From assembly GCA_016787225.1 (NCBI GenBank), contig JAEUUY010000029.1:1-64000 (forward strand): a DNA stretch of 64,000 nucleotides, written 5' to 3'. The translations under genes were made by a program, and so were the position numbers. The notes under the pieces are model-generated. The model saw only the letters and a program-made list of their open reading frames with translations, was not told the DNA's origin and ran no database searches. The first letter of the stretch is position 1, and every line of letters starts with the position of its first letter. Shown here piece by piece: positions 1,458-53,366 of this stretch. This stretch comes from Chitinophagales bacterium (GTDB lineage Bacteria; Bacteroidota; Bacteroidia; Chitinophagales; JADJOU01).

Positions 1458-1767
1458 GGTGAGCTGGCTCACCTTTTACCTGAGCTAGCTCACCTCTGAA
1501 ATGAACTGGCTCACCTTTGACATCAGCTGGCTAATCTCTGACCTTAACTAGCTATTCTTGAATAATAGCTCGTTCACCTTTGACATCAGCTAGCTATCAA
1601 AATACATCAGCCAGTTCACCTCGGAACCGAGCCAGCTATCGAAGTACCTGAGCTAGTTCATCTCTGAAACGAGCTAGTTATCGAAAATCCTGAACTGGCT
1701 CACCTCTGAATAGAACGAGCTAACCATAAACCTGAGTCCGTTTGTCTCCAAGGTTAGCTGGTTATGG
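1458..1767. repeat. Degenerate ~21-bp tandem array, about 15 units
   Basis: About fifteen units with a period near 21 bp share a core like GAGCTAGCTCACCTCTGA. The inner AGCTNGCT is palindromic or nearly so in most units, and units alternate between a CACCTCTGA-like spacer and a TATCGAAAAT-like spacer. The 21-bp period equals two helical turns, so the palindromic cores face the same side of the helix. No frame stays open through the array on either strand. I see no leader, cas genes or distinct spacers, so this is not CRISPR. The rest of 1116-2059 has no supported gene. Confidence 0.8.
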
Positions 1768-1852: not shown

Positions 1853-1877
1853 AAAAAAAGCCTCGCAAAGGCGAGGC
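1853..1877 (-). terminator. Rho-independent terminator for minus-strand transcription
   Basis: Read on the minus strand, GCCTCGC, a 4-nt loop and GCGAGGC form a perfect 7-bp stem followed by seven T residues. It lies just beyond hairpin element copy 2 and about 180 nt downstream of the minus-strand gene at 2060-2545, so it probably ends that transcript, with the element in its 3' untranslated region. Confidence 0.7.
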
Positions 1878-3105: not shown

Positions 3106-6066
3106 ATGATTAAAGAGCAACAAATAGAAGATAGTTTAATTGCCAAACTGACTGACCTGAAATACAGTTACAGGTCGGACATCAAAGACAGGGCTTCGCT
3201 GGAAAAGAATTTTCGTGAGAAATTTCAGGCACTCAACAGAGTGAATCTGACTGACGCTGAATTTGCCAGACTTCGGGACGAGATTATCAATTCAGACGTT
3301 TTTGCTTCCTCAAAGCGATTACGTGAAAAAAACACTTTCAGCCGTGAGGACGGAACGCCTTTGCATTACACTTTGGTAAACATAAAAGACTGGTGCAAAA
3401 ACGAGTTTGAAGTTATCAATCAACTTCGCATCAATACAGAAAACAGCAACCACCGTTACGATGTGATTTTATTGATTAACGGAATTCCCGTTGTTCAAAT
3501 AGAATTAAAAACGCTTGAAGTAAGCCCACGAAAAGCCATGCAGCAAATTGTGGACTACAAAAGCGACCCAGGCAATGGTTATACAAACTCATTGCTTTGT
3601 TTCATGCAGCTTTTTATTGTTACCAATCGCAGTAACACTTATTATTTCGCTAACAACAACTCTTCTCATTTCAGCTTTAATGCAGACGAGCAATTTTTAC
3701 CTGTTTATCAATTTGCCAGTGAGGACAATAAAAAAATCACACATATAGACGACTTTTCAGAAAAGTTTTTGAGCAAATGCACACTGAGCCAAATGATAAG
3801 CAAATACATGGTATTGGTGGCAAGCGAACAAAAGTTGTTGGTGATGCGACCTTATCAGATTTATGCAGTTAGGGCAATTGTAAATTCAATTCAGGAACAC
3901 AAAGGCAACGGTTATATTTGGCATACAACAGGAAGCGGAAAAACGCTGACATCTTTCAAAGCTTCTACCCTGCTCAAAGACAATCCGAATATTGAAAAAT
4001 GTTTGTTTGTGGTCGACCGCAAAGACTTGGACAGACAAACCCGTGAGGAGTTCAACAAATTTCAGGAAGGTTGCGTTGAAGAAAACACCAATACAGAAAC
4101 TTTAGTAAGGCGAATGCTTTCGGAAGATTACGCCAACAAAGTCATTGTAACGACCATTCAAAAATTGGGTTTGGCTCTAGACCCAAACAACAAAAACAAC
4201 TATAAAGAACGCTTAGAAACATTAAGCGAAAAACGCATTGTTTTTATTTTTGATGAGTGCCACCGTTCACAGTTTGGCGAAAATCATAAAGCCATAAAGG
4301 AGTTTTTCCCGAAAGCACAGTTATTCGGATTTACAGGAACACCAATTTTTGACGACAATGCAACTTACAAGCAAATTGACGGAACAGTTGGCTCGTATGT
4401 AACTACAAGGGACATTTTCCAAAATCCGTTACACAACTACACAATCACTCATGCAATAGAAGATAGAAACGTATTGCGTTTTCATATTGACTATTTCAAG
4501 CCTGAAAAAAATGTAACGGTTGGAAGCATTGACCATAAAAAAGCGGTTGTAAATGCTATTCTAAAAAAACACGATGCTGCAACACACAGCAAACGCTTTA
4601 ACGCATTATTGGCAACGGCTTCTATCAATGATGCCATTGAATACTACGAACTATTCAAAGACATTCAGGCAAGCAAAGCCAAAGAAGATGAAAGCTTCAT
4701 TTCTTTAAATATTGCTTGTGTATTTTCTCCACCTGCCGAAGGAAATAAAGATGTTCAGCAATTGCAGGAAGATTTACAACAGGAAAAAGTTGACAACAAA
4801 GTTGAACCTGAAAAGAAGAAAAAAGCACTTGAAGCCATTATCAGCGATTACAACAAACAATATGGCTCAAACCATAAAATCACTGAATTTGACTTGTATT
4901 ACCAAGATGTTCAGCAACGCATAAAATTTCAGAAGTTCAGCAATGCCGACTATCCACGCAAGAACAAAATTGATTTGGTGATTGTGGTGGATATGTTACT
5001 CACAGGCTTTGACAGTAAATACTTGAACACTTTGTATGTTGACAAGAACTTGAAATTTCACGGATTGATTCAGGCTTTCAGCCGAACCAATCGTATTTTG
5101 AATGACACCAAACCATATGGTAACATTTTAGATTTCCGCCAACAACAAGCCGAAGTTGATAGAGCCATTGCTCTATTTAGCGGTGAAGATACAGGACGAG
5201 CCAAAGAAATTTGGTTGGTTGCCCCTGCACCGAAAGTCATTGAGAAATATCAAGAGGCAGTGAAAGCAATGGAGAAGTGGATGGAAGATAAAAATATGGT
5301 GGCAGAACCGCAGGAAGTTTACAACATCAAAGGCGATGTGGCTCGTGTTGAGTTTATCAACCGCTTTAAAGAAGTGCAACGCCTAAAAACACAGCTTGAC
5401 CAATACACTGACTTAAACGAAGAACAGAAAGCAAAAATTGACGAGCTAATGCCCGAAGAGCAATTGCGTTCGTTCCGCAGTTCGTATTTAGAAATTGCCA
5501 AGCAACTCAAAGAAATTCAGCAAAAAGAAGGCGACAAAGCCCCTGAAAACATTCAGCAATTAGATTTTGAGTTTGTGTTGTTTGCTTCTTCGGTGGTGGA
5601 TTATGACTACATCATGAACCTGATTGCCAAATACACACAAGGCACACCGAAAAAGCAGAAAATGACCCGTGACCAACTCATTGGTGTATTGAGCAGCAGT
5701 GCCAACCTGATGGAAGAAAGGGAAGATATTATTGACTACATCAAAACATTGGAAGTTGGCAAAGCATTGAACGAACATGAAATAAAAGACGGCTATCAAA
5801 ATTTCAAGGAAGAAAAAATTGCGAAGCGATTAGCGGAAATAGCAACCAATAATGGCTTGGAGATTCCGGCTTTACAGCAATTTACAGATGCCATCATAAG
5901 CCGAATGATTTTTGATGCCGACAAATTAAGTGAACTCTTTGAACCTTTAGACTTAGGTTGGAAAGAACGAACCAAAAGAGAATTGGCATTGATGGAAGAA
6001 TTGACACCATTATTAAAAAAACAAGCCGAAGGGCGAGAAATATCAGGACTGAAAGTGTATGAGTAA
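3106..6066 (+). CDS. hsdR: Type I restriction enzyme, HsdR motor/nuclease subunit
   Basis: 986 residues, a usual length for HsdR. The N-terminal PD-(D/E)xK nuclease is visible as D119 in RYDVILL and E133-x-K135 in VQIELKT. The SF2 translocase follows: Walker A TTGSGKT (about 274-280), DECH box at 383-386, FGFTGTP, then VVDMLLTGFDSKYLNTLYVD and an arginine-rich QAFSRTNR motif. The C-terminal third is helical and would contact HsdM/HsdS. The enzyme moves DNA past the bound complex and cuts non-methylated DNA at a distance. Its stop overlaps the hsdS start by 8 nt, so translation is probably coupled. All key residues are intact. Confidence 0.97.
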   Translation: MIKEQQIEDSLIAKLTDLKYSYRSDIKDRASLEKNFREKFQALNRVNLTDAEFARLRDEIINSDVFASSKRLREKNTFSREDGTPLHYTLVNIKDWCKNEFEVINQLRINTENSNHRYDVILLINGIPVVQIELKTLEVSPRKAMQQIVDYKSDPGNGYTNSLLCFMQLFIVTNRSNTYYFANNNSSHFSFNADEQFLPVYQFASEDNKKITHIDDFSEKFLSKCTLSQMISKYMVLVASEQKLLVMRPYQIYAVRAIVNSIQEHKGNGYIWHTTGSGKTLTSFKASTLLKDNPNIEKCLFVVDRKDLDRQTREEFNKFQEGCVEENTNTETLVRRMLSEDYANKVIVTTIQKLGLALDPNNKNNYKERLETLSEKRIVFIFDECHRSQFGENHKAIKEFFPKAQLFGFTGTPIFDDNATYKQIDGTVGSYVTTRDIFQNPLHNYTITHAIEDRNVLRFHIDYFKPEKNVTVGSIDHKKAVVNAILKKHDAATHSKRFNALLATASINDAIEYYELFKDIQASKAKEDESFISLNIACVFSPPAEGNKDVQQLQEDLQQEKVDNKVEPEKKKKALEAIISDYNKQYGSNHKITEFDLYYQDVQQRIKFQKFSNADYPRKNKIDLVIVVDMLLTGFDSKYLNTLYVDKNLKFHGLIQAFSRTNRILNDTKPYGNILDFRQQQAEVDRAIALFSGEDTGRAKEIWLVAPAPKVIEKYQEAVKAMEKWMEDKNMVAEPQEVYNIKGDVARVEFINRFKEVQRLKTQLDQYTDLNEEQKAKIDELMPEEQLRSFRSSYLEIAKQLKEIQQKEGDKAPENIQQLDFEFVLFASSVVDYDYIMNLIAKYTQGTPKKQKMTRDQLIGVLSSSANLMEEREDIIDYIKTLEVGKALNEHEIKDGYQNFKEEKIAKRLAEIATNNGLEIPALQQFTDAIISRMIFDADKLSELFEPLDLGWKERTKRELALMEELTPLLKKQAEGREISGLKVYE

Positions 6067-16245: not shown

Positions 16246-16373
16246 GTGATGGTAGTCAGTAATCAGTGGTCAGTGATTGATTTTTAGTAGATAGTTTATA
16301 ATATACAAGAGAATTCATTAAACTTCTCAACCCTAAACCTCTAAACTCTCAACCCTAAACTCTTTAAGTAAAA

Positions 16374-53295: not shown

Positions 53296-53312
53296 GTATA
53301 GAGCAAAAAGTA

Positions 53313-53366
53313 TATATTGCTAAAATAAACTTTTATATATTGCCAAAATAAACTTTTGTATATTTG
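53313..53366 (+). repeat. 23-bp tandem repeat forming the promoter of the AAA ATPase gene
   Basis: TATATTGCTAAAATAAAC followed by TTTTA (53313-53335) is repeated as TATATTGCC...TTTTG (53336-53358). A third partial unit supplies TATATTTG (53359-53366), a perfect minus-7 box, with a TTG at 53340-53342 as possible minus-33 element. The ATG follows 17 nt after the box. Changes in repeat number would alter promoter spacing. Confidence 0.6.

Follow-up and report, generated by a model that had tools for sequence, protein, structure and literature searches.

The tandem array at positions 1459–1773 of the window, as we call the whole 64,000-nucleotide stretch of Chitinophagales DNA that was analysed, belongs to a two-part locus that had not been named before, the other part being a gene for a small protein that we have called P160. 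The coupling of the array to this gene, at 2060–2545, across phyla is the main point that goes beyond the initial annotation of the repeats. Gene and array are linked in the Bacteroidota, Cyanobacteriota and Planctomycetota, with a fixed period, dyads in most of the arrays, no difference between the strands and a turnover of the sequence itself. The P160 family, which spans these three phyla and is found in none of the family libraries searched, is tied to an element that conserves its length and not its letters, the opposite of what is usual for binding sites. No description of the P160–array locus was found among open-licence papers.

The window array (locus L041) is made up of fifteen in-register units of 21 bp with dyad cores of the type AGCTNGCT and a 42-bp super-period. 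It is slightly longer than the approximately 15 units with a two-turn period that had initially been described between 1458 and 1767, though this description was otherwise correct. Over that region the self-identity at lags of 21, 42 and 63 bp was 0.52, 0.65 and 0.50, where 1000 dinucleotide shuffles gave 0.25 (z = 10.3, 14.5 and 9.1 respectively), and Tandem Repeats Finder reported periods of 21 and 42. The lag of 42 bp is stronger than that of 21 bp, as would be expected for two alternating types of spacer, so that this claim too is borne out. The palindromic cores were said to be in phase, and all 12 matches to RRCYRGYY fall in a single phase, where the maximum in the shuffles was 2. The C-tracts recorded next to the array (1420–1455) directly adjoin its first unit. 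They constitute C/G-rich end units, which on the minus strand read as a G-run, T, a G-run, a short hairpin, a G-run, T and a G-run, and similar G/C-rich units terminate related arrays. We also found no named repeat class into which the array would fit, in agreement with the annotation.

The P160 gene, identified from its open reading frame and the family alignment, is on the minus strand and encodes an all-helical protein of 161 amino acids with the motif DTQMLAGSEAF/Y. The array is located downstream of it, past a hairpin followed by a T-run (1853–1877, minus strand) that on inspection of the sequence resembles an intrinsic terminator. A tail follows the last full unit at 1774–1797. It is kept in a second genomic copy of the array, G000:C20, and the alignment of the two copies stops here. 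A gene for a DUF2975 membrane protein followed by a Cro/C1-type helix-turn-helix (HTH) gene is found at 351–1115. This XRE/DUF2975 pair was considered as a part of the locus and rejected, as it was not seen beside the array of the sister species, and it was counted as a neighbour. Inverted-repeat arms of 45 and 87 bp, 98% complementary (110–154 and 174–260 pairing with 1887–1973 and 1984–2028), flank the DUF2975 and HTH genes together with the array, and are possibly a repeated palindromic element. Genes for type I restriction subunit R adjoin the P160 locus both in the window (3106–6066) and in two Flavobacterium MAGs (L073, 1652–4756).

A search for the repeats elsewhere in the genome and in relatives, which had been proposed as a check, was fruitful. 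The second copy in the same 2.96-Mb genome, G000:C20, is 78–79% identical to that of the window and exactly two units (42 bp) shorter. Beside it, at the position expected for the gene, is a sequence that is present at four places in the genome. This 140-bp sequence (L011, 1–145; G000 C26, C1 and C14) adjoins two 21-bp arrays and is probably the end of an insertion sequence. In the sister species (Sphingobacteriales MAG CoA8_V48, locus L012/L070) the array has diverged, while the period, the C/G end and the neighbouring P160 gene have all been kept.

To investigate the linkage more widely, relatives of P160 were collected by protein similarity alone. The first set was drawn from 99 relatives, from 33 loci of named genomes (among them Flavobacterium, Epilithonimonas, Carboxylicivirga, Nodosilinea, Leptolyngbya and a Planctomycetaceae MAG) and from 392 Bacteroidota genomes, 29 of which had a match. 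An array was called where the self-identity was at least 0.5 in the 20-, 21-, 21.5- or 22-bp class. Genes of fewer than 100 amino acids, three loci from which no reading frame was recovered (L051, L053 and L061) and L090, L130 and L131 were excluded before counting, whereas flanks that were cut by contig ends or masked were retained in the denominator. With the score being the maximum over both flanks and many lags, an array adjoins 75 of 100 distinct P160 genes, near relatives included, 63 of them having it downstream and 12 upstream. In the cyanobacterial loci of this first set the array is upstream. A later set of 35 new genes, again including near relatives, was gathered regardless of arrays (28 in searches of cyanobacteria and planctomycetes, and seven in five genomes in which the family had already been found), and a 21-type array was found at 29 of these. 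P160 itself was found in 12 of 244 Cyanobacteriota and three of 246 Planctomycetota genomes. None of 165 random 700-bp segments from P160 loci reached 0.5 at a lag of 21, and 520 kb of Bacteroidota background contained two 21-type regions at 0.6 or above, one of which reads as a charged coding repeat while the other contains 125-codon open frames. Of the 64 downstream loci, at least 26 have a terminator, as recognised by a simple rule, separating the array from the gene. The G-rich end motif GGG-N(1,2)-GGGG-(N)-TAC was seen in 14 of 64 arrays from outside the cyanobacteria and planctomycetes, and was found neither in the 520 kb of background nor elsewhere in the window.

In an alignment of 27 members of the P160 family 14 columns are invariant, most of them within the motif DTQMLAGSEAY. 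Searches of Pfam, NCBIfam, PHROG and PADLOC assigned the protein to no family, giving only a few marginal matches. The AlphaFold model (pLDDT 87.2) is all-helical, with one helix of 55 residues (78–132). Foldseek gave no match to it at E ≤ 0.001, it has no close match in the PDB, and the best results of a VIA search were small helical chains with Z-scores of 6.0 and 5.5, which are not meaningful for a helical protein. At the level of the sequence there were weak matches to the PrgI needle protein (E 0.04). A phage or plasmid origin was considered and rejected, since there were no matches in 50,697 phage records, one weak match to a plasmid and none in viral contigs. In one pair of loci from two genomes (L126/L128) the promoter, gene, terminator and array are shared and the DNA on both sides is unrelated, and in L119/L120 (11–2907) P160 and a 43-bp array are inserted between cas4 and cas1–cas2 on the opposite strand.

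What is conserved in the arrays is the period. Over the 100 genes the mean self-identity peaks only at lags of 21, 42, 63 and 84 bp (0.52, 0.52, 0.49 and 0.49), other lags giving about 0.35–0.40, and a minority of the arrays have a period of 22 or of 43, that is 21 + 22. The period classes cluster on the tree of P160 proteins, with 14 changes compared with a mean of 19.3 when shuffled, none of 200 shuffles being as low. The letters, on the other hand, are free. In one genome two loci (L098/L101) have genes that are 90% identical and arrays that do not align, and the same is seen with the similar genes of L107/L135 and L132/L133. Because P160 genes of roughly 80–90% identity carry unrelated arrays, it would seem unlikely from the sequences that P160 recognises the unit sequence itself. 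Where arrays could be aligned, four of the eight pairs (L073/L074, L109/L136, L072/L075 and L126/L128) have a fraction of gap columns of 0–0.02 alongside 12–22% substitutions, and in the other four the fraction is 0.09–0.17. Accelerated mutation of the arrays was considered, L073/L074 and L109/L136 being striking, and was rejected as the remaining pairs disagree. The composition in weak and strong (W/S) bases is modulated at 10–11 bp, its autocorrelation being positive at lags of 10–11 and negative at 5 and 16, with a z that is inflated by relatedness. Dyads within the units are significant in 44 of 75 arrays, including that of the window (P < 0.05 relative to permutations of the columns, which preserve composition and period), and about 41% of the arrays have no significant dyad. 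A stricter test of the axis found dyads in 30 of 65, with the complementarity reduced at the centre.

The explanation that we tentatively prefer, while putting it at somewhat short of an even chance, is that the P160 gene and its cis-linked, helically phased array form a two-part locus in which the DNA serves as a platform resembling those of partition systems and iterons, the spacing being constrained rather than the sequence. The gene would be followed by the terminator and then by double-stranded DNA of roughly 10–15 units, in which the two-turn spacing (21 bp, less often 22 or 43) is held while the unit sequence drifts. Dimers, either of P160 or of a partner, might be arranged along the same face of the helix, two turns to each unit, and their assembly might be cooperative, as it is on plasmid centromeres and iteron arrays. 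With such an assembly on one face the phase would matter more than the bases. The resulting complex might organise, hold, segregate or silence DNA, all of these being candidate roles. A cooperative DNA-binding or partition-like site had already been suggested for the window array. The in-phase palindromes on a two-turn period are borne out, and such a site is still the best mechanism, though it is one that we infer. In favour of the platform are the linkage of array and gene, the peaks confined to multiples of 21 bp and their near-absence from background, the clustering of period classes on the protein tree, the unit dyads, the equal folding gain of the strands, the W/S modulation, the near-lack of gaps in four of the aligned pairs and the gene and array shared by L126/L128 between unrelated flanks. 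Counted against the platform are the proportion of arrays that lack a significant dyad, the gaps in half of the aligned pairs, the unrelated arrays beside closely similar P160 genes, and P160 itself, which is mostly acidic (median charge in the family −4.7) and without a recognised DNA-binding fold. Nor did a general clustering of 296 neighbouring reading frames reveal a recurrent motor or recruiting gene. A confirmed platform would add a new type of module, for organising DNA or for a partition-like function, to those known in bacteria.

Iterons of plasmid replicons are direct repeats near two helical turns, and in this the P160 arrays are like them. The P160 locus differs in having multiple chromosomal copies and no replication protein, with no replication initiator seen among P160 and the reading frames scanned beside the window array (HTH, DUF2975 and HsdR). 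The nearest architecture, judged by analogy with the published excerpts, may be the type Ia centromere of the F plasmid, sopC/parS, in which twelve 43-bp tandem units, each with a 16-bp inverted repeat, lie downstream of the protein genes (PMC9178275). As far as these excerpts go, the two share tandem units, a period of 43 bp, which is also one of the P160 classes, and a position downstream of a protein gene, and the inverted repeats within the units have their counterpart in the significant dyads of the P160 arrays. In contrast, the P160 locus is chromosomal, no ParA- or ParB-like protein was recognised, and its unit sequence is not conserved between close homologues. The binding protein and motor that define such a centromere were not found, and the locus, which may work like such a platform, is not classed as one.

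It is also conceivable, though unlikely, that the locus is a self-measuring repeat system, which makes or preserves arrays whose unit length is dictated by the double helix, at two turns, rather than by the letters. It would do so in cis and also, in genomes with several P160 genes, at other sites, giving a scaffold for the chromosome that is fixed in phase and free in sequence. We likewise regard it as unlikely that P160 or a partner both generates and maintains the arrays, acting as a device that duplicates DNA in steps of 21 bp by measuring off two turns of the helix. Such a device would fix the length of the unit and leave its sequence free, consistent with a length that is constant while closely related loci differ in sequence, and with copies that differ by whole units, as do the two arrays of this genome. 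Orphan arrays add to this. Thirteen orphan 21-bp arrays were counted in 440 kb from three cyanobacteria with 4–7 P160 genes (G550, G607 and G649), five cyanobacterial genomes with 1–3 copies have none in 360 kb, and twelve P160-free genomes have one in 539 kb, which is GC-rich and probably coding; the scan covered 40 stretches of P160-bearing and 32 of P160-free genomes rather than whole genomes. No P160 was detected near the orphan arrays at L228, L229, L231, L232, L234, L235, L236 and L239. The dyads of the cyanobacterial orphans are not significant (one of 12 at P ≤ 0.05). As the three cyanobacteria may be closely related, the link between orphan arrays and multicopy P160 is a lead and not proof, and orphan arrays are rare in the Chitinophagales genome of the window. 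Moreover, P160 resembles no polymerase, nuclease or recombinase. If the locus does write its own repeats, this would explain the origin of some bacterial minisatellites, and on either this reading or that of the phased platform the function of an orphan gene family becomes testable. Further 21-bp arrays were seen at L268 and L301, in cyanobacteria with many P160 genes.

An alternative that we consider fairly improbable is that a repetitive RNA is made from the array, acting as a scaffold, guide or antitoxin, and is bound by P160. Structured RNA was attractive at the outset, since the window array folds far better than its shuffles (z −8.7 for the plus and −5.9 for the minus strand), the G-rich ends contain a small hairpin and the centres of the dyads are less complementary, as they would be in tiny loops. 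It was then weakened by two tests. Compared with column-permuted arrays the gain in folding was the same for each strand (mean z −2.26 and −2.25; difference 0.08, sd 1.15), and in 11 pairs of loci, orthologous or paralogous, 34 compensatory double changes were observed where 33.4 were expected, with G–T pairs (59) not in excess over A–C (76). Rfam had no family near its gathering score, just three chance-like matches far below theirs. As the gain in folding is symmetric between the strands, the compensation is that of chance and a terminator lies between gene and array, the sequences point to the array acting as DNA rather than as a structured RNA, though an unstructured transcript might still be made.

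Two further systems invite comparison. Type III toxin–antitoxin loci have a small protein gene next to an array of tandem repeats. The P160 locus is unlike them in its usual order of gene, terminator and array, in its 21-bp units, in its all-helical protein and in that RNA is not in evidence, and P160 matched no toxin family in Pfam, NCBIfam or PADLOC. TIGR-Tas, as described in excerpts of the source, similarly has a short array beside one gene and a repeat sequence that varies by locus, as does the P160 locus, with units of 36 nt, variable 9-nt spacers and a Nop-domain protein (PMC12045711). The P160 arrays differ from this description in having many near-identical units with a period of 21, 22 or 43 bp. 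No Nop family was among the Pfam matches to P160 up to an E of 0.1, and the mean share of unit columns with a conservation below 0.5 is 0.10, so that variable 9-nt spacers like those described for TIGR are not seen. CRISPR-type unique spacers are absent as well, the units abutting head to tail.

There would seem to be little chance that the array is a long operator, with a regulatory role and an XRE-type repressor as its binding protein, and that P160 is a mere neighbour. A reading frame of about 122 amino acids, HTH-like and with a coiled coil, does lie directly beyond the array in nine Flavobacterium-type loci (for example L072, 5780–6142, and L103, 739–1098), Pfam giving a marginal HTH_3 match in L072 and none in L103, and the upstream position of the cyanobacterial arrays in the first set would suit an operator. 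However, the HTH-like gene is missing from most loci, P160 being the constant partner, and in genome G288 the arrays of two copies do not align even though their gene and HTH are 79–81% identical.

The chance is similarly slim that these are ordinary minisatellites that accumulate by chance in the intergenic regions of P160. Tandem arrays of other periods are also present in the sampled cyanobacteria, the number of units varies, and in close pairs the arrays are often no more alike than the adjacent intergenic DNA. Slippage, though, would not settle on the same period in three phyla, and the flanks of P160 are enriched far above background. Finally, the decayed or frameshifted heptad-repeat gene that the initial annotation had offered, which is suggested by a 21-bp unit of exactly seven codons and by a heptad-like frame that appears in the window if TAG stops are read through, is almost certainly wrong, because all six frames are closed in both genomic copies and in 41 of 75 family arrays, open frames are no commoner than in column-permuted arrays (34 of 75 against 56%), and periods of 22 and 43 are not multiples of three.

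Some other repeats were seen in passing. At L077 (5549–5744) seven copies of a 28-bp unit occupy the position expected for a two-turn array, and the window contains two more short tandem repeats, at 16319–16363 and 53311–53364, with periods of 15 and 23.
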